Source of the DNA: a virus
DNA length: 37,635 bases
Virus record (IMG/VR): IMGVR_UViG_3300027861_000083
Location: 1 to 37,635 of that record
Direction: 5' to 3' (one strand)
In this document: positions 8,542-37,635 of the stretch, one piece after another
Numbering within the stretch: position 1 is the first letter of the stretch
Layout: the number at the start of each line of letters is the position of its first letter
Made by a program: the position numbers and the translations under genes
The notes under the pieces: model-generated
What the model saw: only the letters and a program-made list of their open reading frames with translations
Databases searched by the model: none
What the model was told of the DNA's origin: nothing

Positions 8542-8545
8542 GTTG

Positions 8546-9115
8546 ATGAAAGTCTTAATAGCTTGCGAATACAGTGGAACGGTAAGAGATGCGTTCACCG
8601 AGTTAGGACATGAAGCTATGTCGTGTGATCTTCTTCCAACTGAAAAAACAGGACACCACTATGAGGGTGATGTGCGAGATGTTCTTGATTACCCGTGGGA
8701 CTTAATGATCGCTCATCCTCCTTGCACTCATCTCAGTGTATCCGGTGCGCGTCACTTTAAGGAAAAGCAATTAGACGGGAGACAACAGACAGCAGTTTCT
8801 TTCTTTATGAGTCTTGCACACGCTAACATCCCGATGATTGCTATTGAGAATCCGGTGTGTGTGATGTCCTCACTGTGGCGTAAGCCTGATCAAATCATCC
8901 AGCCTTGGCAGTATGGGCACGGAGAAACCAAATCCACCTGCTTGTGGTTAAAAGGTCTTCCAGATCTAACACCCACGGAAATCGTGGAGGGAAGAGAAGC
9001 GAGGATACACCGACTTCCCCCAAGTGAGGAGCGTTGGAAAATACGAAGTGAAACTTATCTAGGAATAGCCAAAGCAATGGCAAGTCAGTGGGGAAACGTG
9101 CTGACGTTACGTTAA
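8546..9115 (+). CDS. DNA methyltransferase-fold protein (cytosine methylase-like)
   Basis: Predicted 189 residues. MKVLIACEYSGTVRDAFTELGHEA followed by an acidic CDLLP strand end resembles the SAM-binding start of C5-cytosine methyltransferases, and IAHPPCTHLS sits where the catalytic PCQ loop is found. The family is common in phages and is often annotated as a DNA methylase, but it is shorter than true C5 methyltransferases and no clear target recognition domain is visible. It may modify phage DNA against restriction; the activity is unproven. ATG at 8546 is used, although a TTG lies one codon before. Confidence 0.65.
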   Translation: MKVLIACEYSGTVRDAFTELGHEAMSCDLLPTEKTGHHYEGDVRDVLDYPWDLMIAHPPCTHLSVSGARHFKEKQLDGRQQTAVSFFMSLAHANIPMIAIENPVCVMSSLWRKPDQIIQPWQYGHGETKSTCLWLKGLPDLTPTEIVEGREARIHRLPPSEERWKIRSETYLGIAKAMASQWGNVLTLR

Positions 9116-9135: not shown

Positions 9136-9876
9136 ATGAGTAAGAAAATATACATCGACGGCGACATGCTTCTCTATCGGGCAGCGTTCTCAGCCGAAAA
9201 AGAAATCAAGTGGGATGATGACATCTTCACTGTTCACTCCGACTTCTCGGATCTCAAGGACTGTTTCATCATGGTCACTGACTGCATCAACGAGATCCTT
9301 ATGGTGGACGAGGAGGAAGGCGACAAGGTAACAATGGTCTTCTCAGATCGCTACACCTTCCGTCACGAGATCAACCCTCTTTACAAATCTCACAGGCGCG
9401 AGAAGAGAACTCCACTTGGCCTCGGTGCTTTACGGGACTGGGCTTGTGACACATGGGAAACCCAGCACGAGCAACGCTTGGAAGCCGATGATGTCCTTGG
9501 GATTATTGGAAGCGGTGAACCAGGTTCGATTATTGTTAGTGGAGACAAAGACTTCGCGACCGTGCCGTGCATCTGGTATAACTTCCTTAAGGACGAACTA
9601 CGCACCGTGACCTTGGAGGAAGCAGACAGACAGCACCTAGTCCAGACGCTCGCCGGCGATGCCACCGATGGATACTTTGGTGTTCCTCGGGTGGGCTTGA
9701 AGACTGCTGAAAAGCTCCTTGATAAAGAGGGAGCGGAGTGGCAGACTGTTGTTAATGCTTATGAGAAAGCCGGAATGGGGGAGGACGAAGCGTTGCTGAA
9801 TGCTCGCATGGCGTTCATCCTACGGGAAGGTTACTACGATAAAGACACAAAGGAGATAACACTATGGACACCGTAA
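9136..9876 (+). CDS. 5'-3' exonuclease (T7 gp6 / FEN-like)
   Basis: Predicted 246-residue metal-dependent nuclease. Features of the PIN/FEN fold: YIDGDMLLYRAAF at the N-terminus, HEINPLYKSHRREKR basic arch, EADDVLG acidic cluster, VSGDKDF and GDATDGYFGVPRVGLKTAEKLL, which is the helix-hairpin-helix-type DNA-binding loop. It should degrade host DNA and remove primers as T7 gp6 does. The ATG at 9136 starts MSKKIYIDGD; an in-frame upstream extension is unlikely because it would run into the previous gene. The leader is a run of about ten A residues. Confidence 0.92.
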   Translation: MSKKIYIDGDMLLYRAAFSAEKEIKWDDDIFTVHSDFSDLKDCFIMVTDCINEILMVDEEEGDKVTMVFSDRYTFRHEINPLYKSHRREKRTPLGLGALRDWACDTWETQHEQRLEADDVLGIIGSGEPGSIIVSGDKDFATVPCIWYNFLKDELRTVTLEEADRQHLVQTLAGDATDGYFGVPRVGLKTAEKLLDKEGAEWQTVVNAYEKAGMGEDEALLNARMAFILREGYYDKDTKEITLWTP

Positions 9877-10372: not shown

Positions 10373-10570
10373 ATGTGCATGTCTGTTAAAACTCCCGAAC
10401 CACCGGAGCCTCCTGCGAGTCCTCCACCGCCTACTGCTATAGCTGAGACGGTTAAACCAAAAGATAAACCCTCCAAAGCCCAAGGGAAACCCAAGGGTGT
10501 GGCTAGTCTTGTTAAACGCCGCCCTGTCGTTGGTGGGTTAGGAATCTCCAAACAAACCTCTAACTACTAA
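10373..10570 (+). CDS. Small Pro/Lys-rich protein, gp7.3-like virion protein candidate
   Basis: Predicted 65 residues starting MCMS, then a proline stretch (TPEPPEPPASPPPPTAIAE), a Lys-rich linker and a C-terminal GGLGISKQTSNY. Its position just before the host-binding and portal genes and its disordered, Pro/Lys-rich nature recall T7 gp7.3, a small virion and adsorption protein. A second protein at 16533 also starts MCMS and ends in Asn-Tyr, so the two may be related. Function is inferred from position only. Confidence 0.55.
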   Translation: MCMSVKTPEPPEPPASPPPPTAIAETVKPKDKPSKAQGKPKGVASLVKRRPVVGGLGISKQTSNY

Positions 10571-10578
10571 ATTGTATT

Positions 10579-10911
10579 ATGGCACTCGTAACAACAGACA
10601 TCAACATCACCATCGCGGATTTAGGATCGGGCGGGACCGAAGGTTTCACATCCTCCACAACACCAGCGATCACTCCGCACAACGGGAAAACTAACGCATT
10701 CCTTGTATCGGGTGATTTTGCAGGGGGAACCGTAACACTTCAACACAAGATCGGAGATAATTATGTGGACATCGGACCAGACACAACATTAACTGCTAAT
10801 GGTGGTGGATTGTTTACCACTCCTGTTTCTGATCTAAAGGTATTAGTAACAGGAGCTGATGGTAGTCCATCTTTCGATGTCCAAGTGATCATCAAACCAA
10901 TCATCCTTTAA
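10579..10911 (+). CDS. Small beta-rich structural protein candidate
   Basis: Predicted 110 residues, rich in Thr, Gly and Val with alternating beta-strand patterns (NAFLVSGDFAGGTVTLQHKIGDNYVDIG, LKVLVTGADGSPSFDVQVIIKPI). It looks like a single beta-sandwich domain such as those of head decoration or fibre-associated proteins. It sits immediately before the repeat adhesin and may work with it in the virion. No catalytic motif, signal or membrane segment. Family not recognised. Confidence 0.55.
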   Translation: MALVTTDINITIADLGSGGTEGFTSSTTPAITPHNGKTNAFLVSGDFAGGTVTLQHKIGDNYVDIGPDTTLTANGGGLFTTPVSDLKVLVTGADGSPSFDVQVIIKPIIL

Positions 10912-10923
10912 GAGTATACCGGT

Positions 10924-13029
10924 ATGCGGAAGAATAGACGAACTGACGAAAAGCTCTCCCTTCGCTTAGGGACGCTCGTCCCAACACAAGGGTTTACCCA
11001 ATCTTTGACGAGATCGTTGACTTCCGGGGTCACTAGCACAGCAGGATTTGACCCGCTTTCCCTCAACCCAGCCTTCTGGTTTGACATGGATGTCTCTATG
11101 CTGGCGGCGGGTGATGTGGCAGCGGAAGAAGCTGATCTAGTCGCAACATTGGAAAACAAAGTGAGCGGAGGGGGCGACGCGACCCAGACCACAGCAAGCA
11201 AGCAAGCTGTCGCGAAGATCCCCACAGACGGAAGCCAACCGTATCTCTTGATGGATCTTGTAGACGATGAGTATGAGTTCACAACGGATTCAGCTGTCAA
11301 CGGAACCATCGTCGTGGCAACACTTGAGGGAACCTACAGTGCAAACATCTCCCTTAATGCATCTACGCAATACGACCTGCAAGCGCGGGGTGTGTCAGCA
11401 AGCCCTGATTACGGCTTCTTGAAGAATGTTATCGGCTACCTTATCACGCCTTCGCAGTTGAGCGACTCTGAGATAACAAACATCGAAGCGTATTTTGTCG
11501 ATAAAGGGGCAGCAGCGAGGAGCGCATTTGGGAGTGTTACGGACTTCTCTCTCGCATGGTTTAACTGCAACTCCCTCACATCCTTTCCGTTGCTTGATAC
11601 TTCATCGGGGACGAGCTTCAGTAACACATGGTTTAGCTGCTCATCCCTCACATCCTTCCCCTTAATCAACACTTCATCAGGGACGAACTTCACCTACGCA
11701 TGGTATAGCTGCTCCTCCCTCACATCCTTTCCATTGATCAACACTTCATCGGGGACGACCTTCGACAACGCATGGCGCAACTGTAACTCTCTCACATCCT
11801 TTCCGTTGATCAACACTTCATCAGGGACAAACTTCACCCAAACATGGTATAACTGCACCTCACTCACCTCCTTTCCCTTGATCGACACCTCATCGGGGGA
11901 GAACTTCAGTAACACATGGCGGGACTGCTCTTCATTGACATCATTCCCGCTGATTGATGTTTCATCAACTAGCCTTGACTACACATGGTCAGGTTGCACC
12001 TCTCTCGCATCCTTCCCCTTGATAGACACATCGTCAGTGACGAGTTTCGGTGGAGCATGGCAGTATTGCTCCTCGCTCACATCCTTTCCGCTCATTGACA
12101 CCACACTAGGCACTAACTTCGGTTTTACATGGCGTAACTGTACCTCTCTCACATCATTTCCCCTGATCAACACTTCATTAGGGACGAACTTCACCTACGC
12201 ATGGAATGGCTGCTCATCCCTCACATCCTTCCCCTCAATCAACACTTCATCAGGGACGACCTTCTCCGTCGCATGGTATAACTGCTCCTCCCTCACATCC
12301 TTTCCTTTGATCGATACTTCATCAGGGACGAACTTCGCTTACGCATGGTATAACTGCTCCTCACTCACATCATTTCCCTTGCTTGATACTTCATTAGGGA
12401 CGAACTTCAGCCAAACATGGCGTAACTGCACCTCTCTCACATCCTTTCCGCTGATTAACACCTCTTCGGGGACGAACTTCACTGAAGCATGGTATGACTG
12501 CAATTCACTAACCTCTTTTCCCGCTATCGATACTTCATTAGGGACGAACTTCATTAACGCATGGCGTGACTGCAACACACTTACATCCTTCCCTCCTCTT
12601 GATTTTAGTAAAGCTACAGATATGCTCGCTACATGGTTAGGCTGCTCGTCTCTCACCTCCTTCCCTCTGGTCGATACTTCATTAGTAAGGAGATTTGGAT
12701 ATGCGTGGCATAATTGCTACAGCCTTACCACCTTCCCATCAGGATTCTTTGATAGCTGGTCTCCCGCTTCTGTAAACAGCGCAGTCTTCAACCTGACATG
12801 GGACGGCTGCACATCCCTTACCGCTCAGTCAGTTGAGAACATCCTCACCTCCATCGACACCAGCGGAGTCTACGGAACAGATACAGGGGCAAGCGGAGGC
12901 ACTCAGCTAACAGACAATACCATCGACATCGACTATGATGGAACCACGTTGTCATCCGCAACCTCCACGGCAATCACCAGTCTCAAATCTAAGAATTGGG
13001 CCATCTCAATTAACTCAGTAATCCAGTAA
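10924..13029 (+). CDS. BspA-like (DUF285-type) repeat surface protein, likely host-binding
   Basis: Predicted 701 residues. Residues 1-215 form a unique N-terminal region, including FDPLSLNPAFWFDMD. Residues 217-599 are sixteen near-identical units of 24 residues (one of 23) with consensus SLTSFPLIDTSSGTNF..AW.NC, then a degenerate unit and a C-terminal cap. The Trp, Cys and SLTSFP positions are fixed, whereas the two or three residues before the Trp and the one after it vary. This fits the bacterial surface 26-residue repeat / DUF285 leucine-rich-like solenoid. Its place between replication and portal genes is where some marine podoviruses carry accessory virion proteins; receptor binding is inference. 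Confidence 0.8.
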   Translation: MRKNRRTDEKLSLRLGTLVPTQGFTQSLTRSLTSGVTSTAGFDPLSLNPAFWFDMDVSMLAAGDVAAEEADLVATLENKVSGGGDATQTTASKQAVAKIPTDGSQPYLLMDLVDDEYEFTTDSAVNGTIVVATLEGTYSANISLNASTQYDLQARGVSASPDYGFLKNVIGYLITPSQLSDSEITNIEAYFVDKGAAARSAFGSVTDFSLAWFNCNSLTSFPLLDTSSGTSFSNTWFSCSSLTSFPLINTSSGTNFTYAWYSCSSLTSFPLINTSSGTTFDNAWRNCNSLTSFPLINTSSGTNFTQTWYNCTSLTSFPLIDTSSGENFSNTWRDCSSLTSFPLIDVSSTSLDYTWSGCTSLASFPLIDTSSVTSFGGAWQYCSSLTSFPLIDTTLGTNFGFTWRNCTSLTSFPLINTSLGTNFTYAWNGCSSLTSFPSINTSSGTTFSVAWYNCSSLTSFPLIDTSSGTNFAYAWYNCSSLTSFPLLDTSLGTNFSQTWRNCTSLTSFPLINTSSGTNFTEAWYDCNSLTSFPAIDTSLGTNFINAWRDCNTLTSFPPLDFSKATDMLATWLGCSSLTSFPLVDTSLVRRFGYAWHNCYSLTTFPSGFFDSWSPASVNSAVFNLTWDGCTSLTAQSVENILTSIDTSGVYGTDTGASGGTQLTDNTIDIDYDGTTLSSATSTAITSLKSKNWAISINSVIQ
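11572..12720 (+). repeat. Sixteen coding repeats of 72 bp
   Basis: Fifteen 72-bp units and one 69-bp unit (the sixth) in frame within the surface protein, 1149 bp in total. The units are close to each other at the DNA level, with shared ACTTCATC(A/G)GGGACGA and CTCACATCCTT blocks. Such an array invites gain or loss of units by recombination. It also creates several long antisense ORFs that are artefacts. Confidence 0.92.
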
Positions 13030-13030
13030 C

Positions 13031-13447
13031 ATGCCCGACGAAGACTACAGCGACGAACCACTCACTGAACTTGAACAGAATCAGTTGGACACCGGATGGT
13101 TATTTTTCCTTGCCTTACCGGAAGCCTACCCCGCCCTCTCTGGCTACGTTGACGAGAGCAGAGGTTACCCCATCGGCGGTGCTAAAGCCTCCACCCTGCG
13201 CGGTCTACCCCCAGCCGAGGATCTCCAAGTGGCTAACGACGAAAGTGGTCGGCTAATGCTACGTCTTGAGACATGGAGAGTGACCTCGGATGACCTTGCT
13301 GCCCTCCAGCCTTACATTGAGCAAGGAGTTCTGTCCATCGTGACCGAACAAGAATGGCTCGCGTTGGAACCCGAAGACGAAGACCTGTTGCCTGACCTTG
13401 ACGACCTGTTGCCTGACCTTGACGACCTTGAACCAATCACACCATAA
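13031..13447 (+). CDS. Acidic protein upstream of the portal, unknown function
   Basis: Predicted 138 residues, one base after the repeat protein, ending in a TAATG overlap with the portal gene, which suggests coupled translation. The body has no known motif (WLFFLALPEAYPALSGYVDESRGYPIGGAKASTLRGLPP). The C-terminus is strongly acidic and contains a perfect 21-bp tandem duplication (13382-13423) encoding DLLPDLD twice. It may be a virion or assembly accessory factor. The family is not recognised. Confidence 0.6.
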   Translation: MPDEDYSDEPLTELEQNQLDTGWLFFLALPEAYPALSGYVDESRGYPIGGAKASTLRGLPPAEDLQVANDESGRLMLRLETWRVTSDDLAALQPYIEQGVLSIVTEQEWLALEPEDEDLLPDLDDLLPDLDDLEPITP

Positions 13448-15003
13448 TGATGACCGAAACCGCCCAACAAACATACACCCGCCTTGAGGGGGACCGTTAT
13501 CAATACCTTGATCGCGCACGGGCTTGCTCTAAGCTGACCCTTCCGTATGTCATGCCCGAGGAAGGCTTCGGTCCACACAGTCGCCTTGATACTCCCTTCA
13601 GTGGTGTTGGTTCACGTGGTGTTAACAATCTTTCATCGAAGCTGCTCTTAGCTTTGCTTCCCCCTAATGCTCCCTTCTTTCGCCTACAGGCTGACCAGCG
13701 TAAGCTAGCAGAAGAGGAGACCCCACCAGAACTCTTAAGTGAGATCGAATCATCCCTGCAAGCCCTTGAAGGTTTGGTTATGGATGAGGTAAGCCTCGGA
13801 GCCTACCGTGTAACAATCCACGAAGCTCTCAAGCACTTGATCATCACCGGCAACGCCCTCCTGTATCTACCGGACAGCGGAGGACTCCGTGTGTTCCACC
13901 TTGATAGGTTTGTTGTTGAAAGAGACCCGATGGGGAACCTCCTTAAGATCGCTACAAAGGAAACCCTTGCATTCTCTACGCTTCCTGAAGAAGTCCAAGC
14001 GGCTCTTGTCCAAGGCGACCCCAACCTCGACACCGCCGAAAGCAAGCTCGATCTCTACACCTCATGCTGCCTGATCAAAGGATCGTGGCACATACGCCAA
14101 GACGTTAATGGTGTTAACATTCCTGGTGCTGGGGGTAAGGTTCCCAAGGATCGCAATCCGTTCATCCCCTTGCGTCTTTCTAGGATTGACGGGGAGGCAT
14201 ACGGGCGTGGGTTCGTTGAGGAATACCTCGGTGACATCCAGAGTCTTGAAGCGTTGACCAGAGCGATTGTCGAAGGATCAGCCGCAGCAGCCAAGGTGTT
14301 ATTCCTTGTGAACCCCAACGGGACTACCCGCGCACGGACGCTGGCTGAAAGCCCCAACGGTGCGATTGTTCAAGGGAATGCAGCGGATGTCAGCACCTTA
14401 CAGCTTGGTAAGTTCAACGACTTCCGCACGGCTCAAGTCACAGTAGAAGCCATCAAAGACCGTCTCGGTGGAGCTTTCCTTCTGACATCCGGTGTGGTGC
14501 GACAGGCTGAACGTGTTACCGCAGAGGAGATCCGAATGCTTTCACAAGAGCTAGAGACTTCCCTTGGAGGTATGTATAGCCTCCTTGCCAGTGAGATGCA
14601 GTTGCCCTTGGTGACACGCATTATGATGGTGATGCAGAAGAAGAAGACGCTTCCTAAGCTTCCTAAAGACCTCGTGAAGCCTGTGATTGTTACAGGTGTA
14701 GAGGCTCTTGGTCGTGGTAACGATCTCTCTAAGCTTGACCTGTTCCTTGCTGGTGCTGCCCAAGTGGTTGGCCCACAGGCTATTGGACAGTTTGTTAATG
14801 TTGAAGACTACTTTAAAAGACGCGCTACGGCTCTCGGCATCAAGACTGAGGGACTCATCAAGAGTTCTGAACAGATGCAACAGGAGCAACAGATGGCGCA
14901 AATGCAAGCTCTCAGTGAGAAGCTCGGCCCCGCTGGCATTAAAGCCTTGAACGATCAGTCGTTAGCGGGTAACATGCCGGAGGTTGAACCACCTGAACAG
15001 TAA
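13447..15003 (+). CDS. Portal / head-tail connector protein (T7 gp8-like)
   Basis: Predicted 518 residues (T7 gp8 is 536). Family features include the early LTLPYVMPEEGF segment, GVNNLSSKLLLALLPPNAPFFRL, ALKHLIITGNALLYLP, NPFIPLRLSRIDGEAYGRGFVEEYLGDIQSLEAL, and GGAFLLTSGVVRQAERVTAEEIRMLSQELE; the C-terminus is Gln/Met-rich. The dodecameric portal joins head and tail and is the DNA channel. The start is ATG at 13447, overlapping the previous stop; a second ATG follows directly. Confidence 0.96.
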   Translation: MMTETAQQTYTRLEGDRYQYLDRARACSKLTLPYVMPEEGFGPHSRLDTPFSGVGSRGVNNLSSKLLLALLPPNAPFFRLQADQRKLAEEETPPELLSEIESSLQALEGLVMDEVSLGAYRVTIHEALKHLIITGNALLYLPDSGGLRVFHLDRFVVERDPMGNLLKIATKETLAFSTLPEEVQAALVQGDPNLDTAESKLDLYTSCCLIKGSWHIRQDVNGVNIPGAGGKVPKDRNPFIPLRLSRIDGEAYGRGFVEEYLGDIQSLEALTRAIVEGSAAAAKVLFLVNPNGTTRARTLAESPNGAIVQGNAADVSTLQLGKFNDFRTAQVTVEAIKDRLGGAFLLTSGVVRQAERVTAEEIRMLSQELETSLGGMYSLLASEMQLPLVTRIMMVMQKKKTLPKLPKDLVKPVIVTGVEALGRGNDLSKLDLFLAGAAQVVGPQAIGQFVNVEDYFKRRATALGIKTEGLIKSSEQMQQEQQMAQMQALSEKLGPAGIKALNDQSLAGNMPEVEPPEQ

Positions 15004-23043: not shown

Positions 23044-25569
23044 ATGACCCAGCAAGACGCACTACTTTCATCCTTACTTAAGAGTGAGCAACGCCGCCCT
23101 GTAGATGTTAATCTCGGACAGGTTCCCATTACTCCTACTATTGGACGCATGGGTAACTACTCTGTCGTTACTCGTGAAACTCTTAAAGACAACCCTGCCT
23201 TAGAACTCTCCCGTGCGCTCTCTCAGCTTCCGCAACTACTAGGACAGGCAAAGAACATAAGTGTTGCGGCGGGTTTGAAACAGGCTGAAGAGATGGATCT
23301 TGAGGAGATCGAGAAGAGATGGAAAAACGGGGACACCGAGGCTGAAGGATTCATGACATGGCTCGGGGGAAACAAAGCGTTCCAAGAGGCAGCTTATCAG
23401 AGGTTATTTGACGCGAGCATCAAGCCAAACCTCCAAAAGGTTTCCAGTGAGATTGATGGTATGACTAACGGCGAACTCTTACAATTTGATTCAGACGAAT
23501 CCATCAAGGAGTATGCCCAGAGTCGCTTAGTTGGATCTCTAGCTCCAGGAATCCTAGATACAGTCAGGACTAACTCATGGTTAGCCGTGAGGCATAACAG
23601 AGCGATGGAGGCGATCATTCCTAACTACGTTCAGAAAGCAGCAGCGAGCATTGATGCGCGCAAAAGGGACTTCCAAGAAAAAGAAGCTCTTGCAGCAGTG
23701 GAGACAAACTTCTACACACAGTCTGATGTTGCTGGTCCTATCCAAGGTGATTATATTGTCCCACAGTTTGCTAACCCTAATGACCCACGAGTTCAAATCG
23801 AGAGAGACCTATTCAATAAAGCGCAAGAAGAAGCTAATCAGAGGTGGGTTAACAACCTCCAATACTCTCTTGATTTCGCAACAGACAATGGGTTCGCAGG
23901 GCGTTTAGACAAGTTCCAAATCGAAGCGCAACTAATCCCAGCACTCACTGCAAAATATCGAATGCTTATTGAAGATGAAGATCACAGTGCAGCCGATCTA
24001 TTCTTAGAGGCAATGGAAAGCGGGTCGCTCAACATCAACGGGAGACCAATCAATAAGTCCTCCGCTGGGATGAGGTTAATTCAAAACGCAGAAGCACTTC
24101 TTGAAGACGCGCTTGAAGATGACCAAGCGGGAATCGACATAGAGAAGATTAACGGCATCAAAAGCGATACGCTGAGATTTTTGTCAGGGGAAAAGGTAAA
24201 ACCAGGTTACGATCCTGACAGTATGATTCCACTCTTACAACAACAAGAAAACGATCTGTATAACGATCCTGCGAATCCAATGAGTAACAAAGAAATCATA
24301 GAACTGAGTGGCTTCTTCGCACGGACTCGTGATGGTGTTAGGGGGCGCGGTGAGATCCATTCGGAGACCTCGGATGAGAAACGAAAGGAACTAGGGGAAA
24401 AGTTCAGAAAGACATACAAGTCAGTCAACCCAGAGGAAATTGCCGTGAGTTTTGAAAGGGACGCTCTTGAGAAGGCATTTTTAGATGCTGGAGGTGACCC
24501 TGAGTTCTGGGATAACCAGCTAACTACCACAATACTAGATCCCGAAGGGCAAAAACCTCCCAAGGTAGTCTTCCAGAACCCCGCCTCCCGTGAGTTAGCA
24601 GATGCCGCATCACAAGCATCGAGAAGCACCGTTGCTACTTTTATAGACCGTCCTATAGAGGAGCTATTCTTAGGAGATGTTGCTTCAGATGACATAGAAA
24701 AGCAATCACAGTTACGAACGCAGATAACTGATAAAGCTGATGAGTTTTTCATTAAAGAAGTAGCGGCTCGCTTGTTGGGCATTCAAGAATCCTTTAAGGC
24801 TCAAAACCCACCCTTAACACCCAAGGATGAAAGGATAATCGAAGCGAACACACCCGAGTCTCGACAGATAAGAAGAAAGGAGTTACGTGAGCTAGCCAGC
24901 GGAGGGCTTATCGGTCCTCAAGGAGTAATCAAACCTGTAGTTGTTAAACCTTCGGGTTATAGTAGGGAAAAAGACACTTACCCTCTTGGCGCGATCAACA
25001 CTACACTAAAAAACTCTATTGGCGCTAGGGAGTTCAAGAAAAACCTTCCACAAGCAAAAGTAAACGCACTTATAGGTGCTTACACTGACTCCATTGATGA
25101 GGAAGTTCTACTGTCACAAGCTATAGACCTAGAATCAATCGTGGGACAACCCGAGTATGATACATTACTAAAAAACGAAATTGAAAGCAAGAAGTATGTA
25201 GGTATCCCTTTGACCACACTCTATGCAGGAGGGCGTGAATTTACCCACATGACTGACCGTAAGTGGTATCATGTTTTAGAGGATGGAGTAGGAGGTAAGG
25301 CGGGTTTAAGACAAACGACATCAGCAATTCTATACAATAAATACGAGAATTTCAGTAAACCAGAGGAGACCAAAAAGCGTATCTTCAACCTTCCCGCTGT
25401 CGTAGAGTATCTTCAAGACGGAGACGAGAGAAAACTGAAAAACATACACAACTCACTTCTTAAAGGAAAAATGCCTCTAGAGGAATTTATCAAAAACCAA
25501 GCTGATTTCTTTGAGTCTTTCGCGGGTAGTCTCACTGACGTTCAAACACCGCAACAAACCAACAAATAA
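23044..25569 (+). CDS. Internal virion protein C (T7 gp15-like)
   Basis: Predicted 841 residues (T7 gp15 is 747). It is mostly helical and hydrophilic, with the segments LSRALSQLPQLLGQAKNISVAAG, GNKAFQEAAYQRLFDASIKPNLQ and NSWLAVRHNRAMEAIIPNYVQKAAASIDARKR. Size, position after gp14 and helical composition identify it as an ejection-core protein that would help form the trans-periplasmic channel. No enzyme motif is visible. Confidence 0.85.
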   Translation: MTQQDALLSSLLKSEQRRPVDVNLGQVPITPTIGRMGNYSVVTRETLKDNPALELSRALSQLPQLLGQAKNISVAAGLKQAEEMDLEEIEKRWKNGDTEAEGFMTWLGGNKAFQEAAYQRLFDASIKPNLQKVSSEIDGMTNGELLQFDSDESIKEYAQSRLVGSLAPGILDTVRTNSWLAVRHNRAMEAIIPNYVQKAAASIDARKRDFQEKEALAAVETNFYTQSDVAGPIQGDYIVPQFANPNDPRVQIERDLFNKAQEEANQRWVNNLQYSLDFATDNGFAGRLDKFQIEAQLIPALTAKYRMLIEDEDHSAADLFLEAMESGSLNINGRPINKSSAGMRLIQNAEALLEDALEDDQAGIDIEKINGIKSDTLRFLSGEKVKPGYDPDSMIPLLQQQENDLYNDPANPMSNKEIIELSGFFARTRDGVRGRGEIHSETSDEKRKELGEKFRKTYKSVNPEEIAVSFERDALEKAFLDAGGDPEFWDNQLTTTILDPEGQKPPKVVFQNPASRELADAASQASRSTVATFIDRPIEELFLGDVASDDIEKQSQLRTQITDKADEFFIKEVAARLLGIQESFKAQNPPLTPKDERIIEANTPESRQIRRKELRELASGGLIGPQGVIKPVVVKPSGYSREKDTYPLGAINTTLKNSIGAREFKKNLPQAKVNALIGAYTDSIDEEVLLSQAIDLESIVGQPEYDTLLKNEIESKKYVGIPLTTLYAGGREFTHMTDRKWYHVLEDGVGGKAGLRQTTSAILYNKYENFSKPEETKKRIFNLPAVVEYLQDGDERKLKNIHNSLLKGKMPLEEFIKNQADFFESFAGSLTDVQTPQQTNK

Positions 25570-30087: not shown

Positions 30088-31191
30088 ATGGCTTTAACAA
30101 CAACAACCGCCCTGTCATATTATCAGCAAGAAAGCAGTGGAAACTACACTGAGTGGACCAACCCTATTAACTTCTCCCTTGAAGCCTTAAGTGCTGACGA
30201 TGTGGAAGTGTGTGTTATCAACTCACAAGCCGCTGAAGGATTTCAAAAGCTGACACTTATCAAAGATACGGACTATACCCTAGACTTCGCCTCTAAGACC
30301 GTGACATGCACATCGTCTGCTTGGGGTGATATAAGCAAAATCGCCAACCACTCAGCGAACCACATTAGAATCTTCCGTGCGACATCAATAACCGAACTCG
30401 TTGATTTCACCAATGGTGCAGTGTTGAGCGCAGACGATCTTAATCTTGCCTACAAGCAAAACTTGTTCGCCGCACAGGAGATGAATGAAGATGCTGGGCA
30501 TACTAGAGGTGGAATCCAGAGTGTCAGTGAGACAGCATTAGCGGATTCCTCAGTGGCCAATGCAAAGATTCAAAACAATGCTGTGACTTCTGACAAGATT
30601 GCCACTGACGCTGTTATCGCAGCAAAGATCGCGAGCGGAGCCGTTACTACAGCAAAACTCGCAGCAGAAGCGGTCACCGAGGAAAAGATTGAGACAGAGG
30701 CGGTTACCACGAACAAGCTTGAAAACGATGCAGTCACTACCGTGAAGATAGTGAACGATGCAGTAACATACGATAAAGTATTGCCAGCGAGTAAAGCCCA
30801 AATGGAAGGACAACTAGGGGCGGGTACGCATGGAACTCCTGGTGTTGTTGCTGGCGTGGTGACTCCTGATGTGCTTAAGAATAGCCCGTTGGTTCCTAAG
30901 TGTTATGGTGTAGTTAGTTATGATGGTAACACTCCATCGCTTTCAAGCGGATCTTTTAACGTGGCCTCGGTTTCCGAACCATCAGCAGATAAAAGAACAG
31001 TCACTTTTACAACCCCGTTACAGAACGCAAGTTATGTTGTATTAGCAACAATGCAGACCGCTGCCGCAGTAGGGGATTACGAGGCCGTAAGCATAACTGC
31101 TAAAGCAACCTCATCCTTTACAATGGAGTCACGCCACAATGAGAGCGCGGACTTAAGTATTAACTTCGTGGTCTTCGGAAGCACCTATTAA
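30088..31191 (+). CDS. Tail fibre protein (T7 gp17-like N-terminus)
   Basis: Predicted 367 residues (T7 gp17 is 553). Residues 1-140 match the T7 tail fibre attachment domain (GNYTEWTNPINFSLEALSADDVEV, IRIFRATSITELVDFTNGAVLSADDLNLAYKQNLFAAQE). Residues about 150-235 are repeats of the type AVTTxKIxxDAV that form a trimeric shaft. The C-terminal 120 residues are a beta-rich tip. The short fibre together with the repeat surface protein may set host range. No chaperone domain or cleavage motif is seen. Confidence 0.92.
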   Translation: MALTTTTALSYYQQESSGNYTEWTNPINFSLEALSADDVEVCVINSQAAEGFQKLTLIKDTDYTLDFASKTVTCTSSAWGDISKIANHSANHIRIFRATSITELVDFTNGAVLSADDLNLAYKQNLFAAQEMNEDAGHTRGGIQSVSETALADSSVANAKIQNNAVTSDKIATDAVIAAKIASGAVTTAKLAAEAVTEEKIETEAVTTNKLENDAVTTVKIVNDAVTYDKVLPASKAQMEGQLGAGTHGTPGVVAGVVTPDVLKNSPLVPKCYGVVSYDGNTPSLSSGSFNVASVSEPSADKRTVTFTTPLQNASYVVLATMQTAAAVGDYEAVSITAKATSSFTMESRHNESADLSINFVVFGSTY

Positions 31192-36105: not shown

Positions 36106-36291
36106 ATGAGATCCATTAAACAAGTTTTAATGAAGCGCGACGGGTTGACAGCCACGGAAGCGGAAAGTCTCATTTCGGAAGCTCGCGAGCAATTTGAGGA
36201 ATATGTTAGCAATGGCGCATTTGATTTAGCAGAGGAAATTTGCTTAGATTATTTCGGTTTAGAGCCTGATTACCTAGTTGAATTTTTCTAA
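36106..36291 (+). CDS. Small conserved helical protein of phages and plasmids
   Basis: Predicted 61 residues. VLMKRDGLTATEAESLISEAREQFEEYVSNGAFDLAEEICLDYFGLEPDYLVEFF follows a pattern I recognise from many small mobile-element proteins (KRDG.T..EA..LI.EA...... EEICLDYFGLEPDYL). Function unknown; the acidic helical form suggests a protein-protein role. Two bases separate it from the gene before; an AGGGGCGGAG sequence upstream is a possible weak Shine-Dalgarno site. Confidence 0.65.
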   Translation: MRSIKQVLMKRDGLTATEAESLISEAREQFEEYVSNGAFDLAEEICLDYFGLEPDYLVEFF

Positions 36292-36295
36292 TACG

Positions 36296-37027
36296 ATGAA
36301 AACAACAACTAAAAAACCAGCATGGAAACCTTCCCTAGGCTCCTTTTCAAAAGCGGTCCAAGGTGCAATCTCTCTTAATTTTGGAGAGTCAGGGGGAATC
36401 AATTGCTCCACGAAATGCGAGGCGTTGAAGCTTGGCGTATGTTACGCGGTACACACCGAAAAGATGAAGCCAAGTATTCAAACAAGCGGAGAAAGGAAAA
36501 GGAAGCACGGTTTCGCAAAGGTTTGTCTTGAATACCGAAACCAAATCGAAAGACTAGAAAGCAAAGGGAAAGCAATCCCCTGGATTCGTTTCTCAACATT
36601 CGGAAGTGTCCCTAATAGGCGTTTAACGGGTGTTGAGATGCAAGCTTTTGCCGATCTAGTGCGCTCTTTTCCTTCCGGCGTGCCCGTGCATTTCCCAGTA
36701 GAGACAAAGGAGAAAGCCGAAAGGTTTCGCGCTATTGCTGTCGCGTTCGATCTTTCGCTTGTCGTTCGGGAATCGTGTCAGTCTGATAGGCGAGCAAATG
36801 AAACACTCGCGGAAAACTCGCCAGCATCCAGGATTGTTTACAAGGGAGAGAACAAGCGCGAAAGGCTCGTAAATGCGCAAAAGCTTGCCCGGAAAAGCAA
36901 AGGGAAAGCGCGTGTTTGTCCTGCTATTGCGTCAACTATCCTCAGGCGTGATAATCCTGTTAAATGTGGACAGTGTACTTTGTGTGCGCGTGGTGACGTG
37001 AATTTGATCCTTTACCCTCAACACTAA
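36296..37027 (+). CDS. Gp88/DUF7227-like cysteine-rich phage protein
   Basis: Predicted 243 residues from ATG 36296. Near the N-terminus (about residues 30-50) lies INCSTKCEALKLGVCYA, and the C-terminal end is KCGQCTLCARGDVNLILYPQH, a closing C-x2-C-x2-C...H set. Together they suggest metal binding, possibly an Fe-S centre. The segments IRFSTFGSVPNRRLTG and VHFPVETKEKAERF fit families annotated in phages as Gp88 or DUF7227. The function is not known. It starts four bases after the previous stop codon. Confidence 0.65.
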   Translation: MKTTTKKPAWKPSLGSFSKAVQGAISLNFGESGGINCSTKCEALKLGVCYAVHTEKMKPSIQTSGERKRKHGFAKVCLEYRNQIERLESKGKAIPWIRFSTFGSVPNRRLTGVEMQAFADLVRSFPSGVPVHFPVETKEKAERFRAIAVAFDLSLVVRESCQSDRRANETLAENSPASRIVYKGENKRERLVNAQKLARKSKGKARVCPAIASTILRRDNPVKCGQCTLCARGDVNLILYPQH

Positions 37028-37466: not shown

Positions 37467-37506
37467 AGGCCGCCCTTGGGATTCCCCTTGGAGCGGCTTT
37501 TCTTTT
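37467..37506 (+). terminator. Rho-independent terminator at the right end
   Basis: AGGCCGC (37467-37473) pairs with GCGGCTT (37493-37499) with one G-U pair; a smaller GGG-ATT-CCC hairpin sits in the loop. A T-rich tail (TTTTCTTTT) follows. It ends the accessory transcript directly before the terminal repeat. Confidence 0.8.
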
Positions 37507-37509
37507 GTG

Positions 37510-37635
37510 TCCGTCCCTTGGTCCGTCCTTTGGTCCGTCCCTTGGTCCGTCCTTTGGTCCGTCCTTGTGTCCGTCCTTGTGTCCGTCCTTGTGTCCGTCC
37601 TTGTGTCCGTCCTTGTGTCCGTCCCTGGGTCCGGC
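37510..37635. repeat. Right copy of the terminal direct repeat
   Basis: Identical over 126 bases to 11-136. It contains ten complete 12-bp units and half of an eleventh, cut by the window end. If the window is circular, the next bases would be those at 137 onward. Confidence 0.9.

Follow-up and report, generated by a model that had tools for sequence, protein, structure and literature searches.

A leucine-rich repeat module in the exonuclease–portal gap of a marine T7-like phage as a candidate exchangeable host-recognition adhesin

In a marine T7-like phage, the gap between the exonuclease and portal genes, referred to here as the slot, holds a gene that behaves as a cassette. Behind a constant start, the gene encodes a ladder of leucine-rich repeat (LRR) units that share a near-identical frame and differ around an invariant Trp, and in related phages the same start leads into other modules. 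On the sequence comparisons described below, we consider it likely that the product of the slot gene is a virion-borne host-recognition adhesin built from parts and diversified by the exchange of both modules and units. The window, i.e. the whole stretch of DNA analysed, is the 37,635-nucleotide IMG/VR record IMGVR_UViG_3300027861_000083.

The slot in its genome

By gene content, the window is a marine T7-like virus of bacteria. It encodes a single-subunit RNA polymerase, a T7-type SSB, a primase-helicase, a Gp10A-like capsid protein and a T7 gp14-like protein, along with further T7-type genes for the tail fibre and terminase; no tRNA genes were found in the window. Although classed as linear, the record probably represents a complete genome, because a 126-bp exact repeat is common to its two ends (11–157 and 37505–37633). 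This end repeat is made of 12-bp TCCGTCCTTGTG-like units. An integrase-family gene (243–1064, PF00589, 2.6e-18) is present in this T7-like phage, in AP013544 (76%) and in a 37.8-kb relative (97%), and suggests a temperate option. For one or more members of group G8, the group of the nearest named phage, a link to SAR11 is given in one study (PMC3861242). SAR11 was not carried over as the host, as the GC content of the window (0.42–0.53 per kb) is above the G8 group mean of 39.6%. The features on which the argument rests are as follows.

9136–9876, plus strand: exonuclease gene, from its position probably of the T7 gp6 type; upstream border of the cassette, 97–100% amino acid (aa) identity in relatives holding the gene
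10373–10570, plus strand: conserved small Pro-rich protein of 65 aa; 89–98% aa identity in same-group relatives
10579–10911, plus strand: moderately variable 110-aa protein directly upstream of the slot gene; 63–91% aa identity in same-group relatives
10924–11025, plus strand: constant N-terminal 34 codons, proposed virion anchor; found in 18 of the 30 loci tested, 76–100% aa identity
11026–11532, plus strand: linker and pre-ladder domain (aa 35–203); partly common to three loci of other phage types (L007, L050, L056)
11533–11571, plus strand: half unit leading into the ladder (aa 204–216), from the unit pattern
11572–12720, plus strand: sixteen regular LRR units (aa 217–599), fifteen of 24 aa and one of 23 aa; supported by the fold match
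12721–12813, plus strand: irregular seventeenth unit of 31 aa (600–630), from the unit pattern
12814–13029, plus strand: C-terminal cap (aa 631–701), from sequence comparison among ladders
13031–13447, plus strand: 138-aa partner gene, whose type switches with the module in the comparison of relatives
13447–15003, plus strand: portal (head-tail connector; PF12236, 3.4e-77), downstream border of the cassette
30088–31191, plus strand: ordinary T7-type tail fibre (PF03906, 1.9e-06), additional to the slot gene

The slot gene is an open reading frame of exactly 10924–13029 on the plus strand and encodes 701 aa. It starts 12 bases after the 110-aa gene and ends one base before the 138-aa gene, the stop codon of which overlaps the start of the portal gene by one base. 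The portal protein is 96–100% identical (aa) in same-group relatives holding the gene. In AP013544 the exonuclease counterpart carries the annotation 'DNA polymerase I', and the counterpart of the 110-aa protein is 53% identical (aa); the 65-aa Pro-rich protein had no match at E 0.1 in the phages collection. Further upstream, a 190-aa gene (8543–9115) is kept in two relatives (L005, L026) and missing from two others (L003, L017), in which the DNA polymerase gene abuts the exonuclease gene. Its counterpart in AP013544, 46% identical, is annotated as a putative DNA methylase.

Repeat units, predicted fold and variable patch

The repetitive nature of the slot gene is apparent at both the DNA and the protein level. 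Tandem Repeats Finder (TRF) reports a 72-bp array of 13.9 copies with a score of 736, and the lag-24 autocorrelation is 0.58 compared with at most 0.17 in 1000 shuffles (lags 10–59), which rules out a chance repeat. The regular units begin with SLTSFP or a variant of it, and every one of the 16 units keeps Leu2, Ser4, Phe5, Pro6, Trp20 and Cys23. An earlier note on this DNA had described a ladder of sixteen units with a fixed frame and variable residues around Trp, a description that the unit alignment, TRF and the autocorrelation bear out. The frame is less rigid than it had claimed: the six invariant positions stand, while position 15 varies and positions 7–9 and 12 vary moderately. Similarly, the Trp of its 'AW' motif is invariant, while position 19 holds either Ala or Thr, with Ser in 3 of the 59 units from other loci. 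The irregular unit and the cap share 77–92% nucleotide identity with six other ladders, one of which is truncated.

Proteins of the BspA/TpLRR family consist of 23–24-residue units with the consensus A-[FW]-x-x-C, in which Phe is usual. The window protein has tandem units of 23–24 residues with a hydrophobic frame, and its model folds as a solenoid. The best solved match of the model (aa 198–584) is 4fs7, a BspA-type LRR protein (Z 25.2, rmsd 4.5, 360 residues aligned), and the TpLRR structure 6mlx is also among the fold matches (Z 17.5). The BspA-like solenoid foreseen in the earlier note is thus supported by structure prediction. The confidence of the AlphaFold model varies along the chain, with pLDDT values of 63–91 per ten-residue block for aa 231–560, lower values at both ends of the ladder, mostly <60 in the linker and pre-ladder domain (aa 35–203), and <50 for residues 1–118 and parts of the cap. 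A sequence search of the PDB returned generic LRR proteins, variable lymphocyte receptors included.

With the window ladder protein, all curated Pfam and NCBIfam models stay below their cut-offs. LRR_5 (PF13306) gave no row at E up to 10. Among models of the 26-residue PARCEL repeat (DUF285/Liste_lipo_26), PF03382 gave no row, and the ladder alone scored 9.4 bits against the TIGR02167 cut-off of 30. Relatives also stay below the LRR_5 cut-off of 27.7 (L012, 23.5 bits; L001, 22.7 bits), while a cyanophage ladder (L053) passes PF03382. By predicted fold and repeat pattern the window protein is therefore a BspA-type LRR protein, but a divergent one, as curated family models stay below cut-off. 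No close cellular homologue was found; scans of genome contigs gave 37 and 594 pattern matches, none of which was confirmed as a relative. Distant BspA-type relatives occur in 17 bacterial plasmid records, with about 32% identity among the eight matches listed, and in 54 phage records, all below 60%.

Variation among the units is concentrated around the invariant Trp. Entropy reaches 2.0–2.7 bits at positions 17 and 18, just before Ala/Thr19-Trp20, and at positions 21 and 22 after it, and replacements concentrate at positions 15, 17, 18, 21 and 22, here called the patch. Among the 16 window units, replacement and silent differences per site are 0.03 and 0.58 in columns 1–6 and 0.55 and 0.68 in columns 17, 18, 21 and 22, so that the patch exceeds the frame about twentyfold in replacement differences, with similar silent differences. 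The contrast recurs in 59 units from nine other loci (0.036/0.497 in the frame, 0.615/0.595 in the patch). The pooled comparison combines these 59 units with 15 of the window, omitting the 23-aa window unit, a 26-aa unit of L007, and irregular last and truncated units. In these 74 units, the patch columns are 89% polar (Gly and Tyr counted in), with Asn, Arg, Ser, Tyr, Gly and Asp, led by the first four, making up 287 of 370 residues. Non-polar residues, with Ala and Cys included, make up 94% of the frame columns 2, 5, 8, 16, 19, 20 and 23. This composition is as expected if the frame forms the core and the patch lies on the surface, and together with the pattern of variation it makes a binding face formed by the variable residues plausible.

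The roughly equal replacement and silent rates in the patch are also what neutral loops would give, which weakens the adhesin reading. If the repeats merely drift, the patch would be an unconstrained surface with no binding role and the unit number, which varies freely, would change by slippage. We regard such drift as rather improbable in view of the close unit pairs (at most 11 of 72 nucleotides different; n = 53), in which replacement and silent codon differences number 123 and 14 in the five patch columns and 96 and 189 in the remaining 19, although these pairs are not independent. The narrow choice of patch residues and the position of the module among the most exchanged parts of the genome also argue against drift. 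Positive selection at the patch is suggested, short of proof, given the near-saturation of silent sites and the non-independence of unit pairs.

Many patch codons are NNC or NNT with the first two bases varying (columns 15, 21 and 22), as could arise from a diversity-generating retroelement acting on the units. The window contains no reverse transcriptase, nor do any of the 14 records of relatives, which are mostly fragments. In place of a template repeat, blastn of the ladder against the rest of the window gives three chance-level matches of 13–17 nucleotides (E 0.56). The lack of both components in the window, already pointed out in the earlier note, led us to reject a retroelement, which we consider extremely improbable.

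Apparent exchange of modules, partner genes and units

A comparison of relatives suggests that the slot gene has been exchanged in large pieces. Four of the 18 loci with the 34-codon start continue as a ladder in the same gene (L039, L040, L012, L041), two have the ladder in a second gene (L004, L037), and 12 are without a ladder in the available sequence, several of them cut by a contig end. The 12 loci without the start comprise nine that begin within or after the slot gene, AP013544 with a start of its own, and two from other phage types (L007, L050). Relative to the window, nucleotide identity in 14 relatives is 0.75–1.00 over codons 1–34; over codons 35–80 it is 0.25–0.35 ungapped and 0.44–0.64 gapped in nine of the 14, and 0.57–0.93 in the other five. 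That gapped identity past codon 34 drops less sharply than ungapped identity weakens the adhesin reading. The modules behind the constant start are ladders of 4–16 units, concanavalin-like domains or a 306-aa form. These metagenomic contigs are often short, and mis-assembly in repeats is possible for single contigs. Further, the locus counts overstate independence because some loci share a contig (L003, L015 and L040; L009 and L011; L020 and L044; L005 and L036; L026 and L047; L023 and L048) and others are near-identical (L004, L005 and L006; L016 and L017; L028 and L029; L048 and L049).

The gene immediately downstream changes type along with the module. The 138-aa partner (type A) is found in 17 records with ladder or concanavalin-type modules and an unrelated 108-aa partner (type B) in five records with the 306-aa module, i.e. 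module and partner co-switch in all 22 records and are never mixed, some of the records being near-duplicates. Among the type-A records, one holds a fragment of the partner (L043) and three have another small gene between ladder and partner (L001, L028, L029). Left uncounted were partners without a module (L013, L018 and L022 of type A, L021 of type B) and the contig of L023 and L048, which has a type B partner and a 306-like module at 37% identity split by the contig end. Ladder and partner also lie side by side in L056, which has different tail genes. Pfam gave no match for the window partner and one weak match (E 0.055) in one of 11 members; PHROG likewise gave one weak match (E 0.013) in one of 11. 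Fold searches with the partner gave no clear match (best Z 5.0), the best viral match being a protein of an uncultured marine virus (E 0.044). From the co-switching, the partner probably serves the assembly or stability of its module type. A role as tail-fibre chaperone was considered, for which there is no direct support.

In the two longest relatives, of 37.8 and 32.2 kb, the slot gene matches over 5–6% of its length and the partner is undetectable, while the RNA polymerase, primase, DNA polymerase, exonuclease, portal and terminase are 97–100% identical (the RNA polymerase is half covered in one relative and the terminase to 0.74 in the other). The pattern observed suggests that the whole C-terminal module is exchanged behind the 34-codon start together with the downstream gene. 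Few parts of the genome are exchanged as much as the slot module, and it is not the sole labile place: the 249-aa gene, the gp15-like protein and the tail fibre also vary, which weakens the adhesin reading. The tail fibre is 57–73% identical (aa) to those of three relatives over its full length, or 61–77% by a separate search. With 28–52% identity in three relatives, the gp15-like internal virion protein (23044–25569) is unusually divergent, most of their other genes being above 80%. The 32.2-kb relative shows further divergence, with 32–58% identity for gp14, gp16 (32%) and a 325-aa gene. The 249-aa gene (36278–37027) scores 25.2 bits against PF17338 (GP88), just over cut-off, and none of four relatives, including the one of 37.8 kb, has a match to it, which makes it a second replaced or lost gene.

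Sister modules in the slot match a carbohydrate-binding family (PF02018, above cut-off in L037 and L042) and a concanavalin-like family (PF13385, below cut-off in L014). A virion-borne protein for general attachment to particles, mucus or polysaccharide, as opposed to recognition of a specific receptor, would accommodate such domains as well as the presence of an ordinary tail fibre, and work on coral-mucus vibriophages discusses an LRR protein of theirs for mucus adherence (PMC10945359). We nevertheless hold general attachment to be unlikely, as module exchange amid core genes that are 97–100% identical would better fit strain-specific recognition. Two-gene slots (L001, 16605–21131; L004; L014; L037) are a further arrangement, in which the second protein starts with MALNL and, in L004, L014 and L037, the first carries the 34-codon start. 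They suggest two adhesins in series.

Beyond whole modules, single units appear to recombine. The seven arrays that reach the last unit hold 16, 10, 10, 8, 8, 7 and 4 regular units, which supplies the comparison of unit number among related phages proposed in the earlier note. The clearest case is L009, with a ladder of 107 residues compared with 394 in the window and with pre-ladder DNA, cap, partner and portal 93.3%, 91.9%, 98.6% and 98.1% identical, respectively. Similarly, two Nonlabens phages of the same host strain, P12024S and P12024L, differ in the ladder gene by a 69-nucleotide (23-aa) unit indel at 92.7% nucleotide identity, and six other genes or gene parts are 97.3–100% identical. 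Units are no more alike within arrays than between them (0.715 vs 0.711, reached in 216 of 1000 label shuffles), which suggests draws from a shared, recombining pool. The nearest matches of window unit 2 are units 10, 11 and 9 of its own array (0.92, 0.89 and 0.88 nucleotide identity), which fits exchange within an array, and the neighbouring window units 9 and 10 each match the neighbours 5 and 6 of L039 at 0.86, a trace of unit order. The earlier note had attributed variation to recombination between units. Array size and the likeness of unit 2 agree with this; the account is incomplete in that it missed the exchange of whole modules and in that units overall show no greater likeness within arrays.

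The exchange may extend beyond the T7-like group. At the nucleotide level the slot gene matches L007 (81.0% over 860 bases) and L056 (76.9% over 752 bases), both with other podovirus-like genes, and L050 (77.7% over 489 bases) with HK97-type head genes; in two phage lineages that differ in head or tail genes, the ladder module follows other N-termini. Ladders were also encountered in larger or more distant genomes. In a 136-kb viral contig, two ladder ORFs lie next to each other (L008, 2997–5240 and 5245–7587), with 28 and 19 unit matches to a profile derived from the window, and a 147-kb contig holds a distant ladder (L058). A Klebsiella P2-like phage encodes a fusion of a long BspA-type LRR with tail protein I two genes upstream of its tail fibre gene (L055, 3759–6785).

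Virion link and comparison with known systems

The link to the virion is indirect. In L014, a slot protein lacking the ladder matches phrog_5939, 'tail protein' (3.8e-43), and in Klebsiella phage ST16-OXA48phi5.4 an LRR is fused to tail protein I (PF09684, 3.6e-38; LRR_5, 1.7e-10). The ladder gene of S-CBWM1 is annotated as a putative tail protein and that of P12024S as similar to tail fibre protein; in S-SKS1 the ladder gene sits among head genes, which does not favour a tail location. The window ladder protein itself matches phrog_34853 (1.2e-65), a family without assigned function; its match to phrog_1424, 'tail protein', is at 8.4e-4 only, with no strong virion-annotated match, and residues 1–139 had no match at E 1e-5 in the phages collection. 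The adhesin reading is further weakened by the variable T7-type tail fibre that the phage already has.

The placement of the slot gene before the portal gene, outside the tail block, would also suit a protein that is not part of the virion: a secreted or cell-surface protein of the infected cell or lysogen, which could act like BspA or exclude other phages. The integrase gene, the closest solved structures, which are bacterial surface or uncharacterised LRR proteins, and the distant BspA-type relatives on bacterial plasmids point in the same direction. The constant N-terminus, however, is basic and by eye unlike a signal peptide, a sister slot protein matches a tail family and an LRR is fused to a baseplate protein in another phage, all of which make a non-virion role, in our judgement, improbable.

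As a virion-borne adhesin, the protein would be attached to the particle by its constant N-terminus, and the BspA-type solenoid would present about five variable residues per unit beside the invariant Trp as a binding face. Recombination at the 34 codons and around the partner and portal genes would swap the module with its partner. Recombination among the near-identical 72-bp frames would alter the unit number and could also draw units from a pool common to other phages, with point changes as a further source of replacements at the patch. Should the ladder set host range, the T7-like phage would have a second, exchangeable recognition device away from the tail fibre gene. Recognition would follow a rung-by-rung code on a fixed scaffold, to which each unit contributes about five residues and in which natural variants differ mainly at these, and the bacterial surface structure bound by each patch might be learnt from environmental sequence. 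A more tentative proposal, possible though somewhat doubtful, is that interchangeable LRR recognition units and modules form a pool common to marine phages of unrelated structural types, with lineage-specific anchors and a matched partner per module class, and that host range is combinatorial by unit number, order and patch. If true, such combinatorial host range would resemble an immune repeat receptor.

Several known systems share parts of this arrangement. BspA/TpLRR proteins such as 4fs7 and 6mlx have the same 23–24-residue units, hydrophobic frame, A-aromatic-x-x-C motif and solenoid, which for the window is predicted; the window protein differs in being phage-encoded, in having Trp for the usual Phe, and in a frame that is near-identical from unit to unit. 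Lamprey variable lymphocyte receptors, found here by sequence (4po4, E 6.6e-6), provide an analogy only, i.e. an LRR scaffold with varying surface residues; they are assembled somatically, belong to a different LRR class and carry the variable face on the concave sheet. Among phages, AP013544 (Ayaqvirus S45C18) also has a slot before the portal gene with a ladder and a related partner. Unlike in the window, the slot has two genes and no match to the 34-codon start; the second gene (897 aa) encodes the ladder, which aligns at 40% identity over 0.55 of the query, and an extra 113-aa gene lies between ladder and partner. LRRs of double-stranded DNA viruses are reportedly the subject of Matsushima et al. 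2021, which may well cover phage LRRs.

Planavibriovirus lipares has an LRR-like protein in its tail module that is most diverse among close strains differing in host susceptibility, with weak LRR homology (10% HHpred probability as stated); the accessible portions of that text mention neither a constant anchor nor the swapping of modules, a partner that co-switches or a patch in each unit (PMC10945359). In work on metaviromic islands, host-recognition genes are described as a labile part of marine phages, and T7-like tail fibres as keeping the N-terminal domain while similarity is lost at the C-terminus (PMC3909814). The slot resembles such islands as a region replaced among otherwise close phages. 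It is unlike the fibre genes described there in its site, the exonuclease–portal gap, and in a module that can carry an LRR ladder and is swapped with a partner. Among the matches listed in searches of open-licence literature, no account was found of a constant anchor, per-unit patch, exchangeable ladders and co-switching partner together outside the fibre gene. Collectively, labile host-recognition genes in marine phages and phage LRR proteins were known before; what appears new here is their combination in a cassette.
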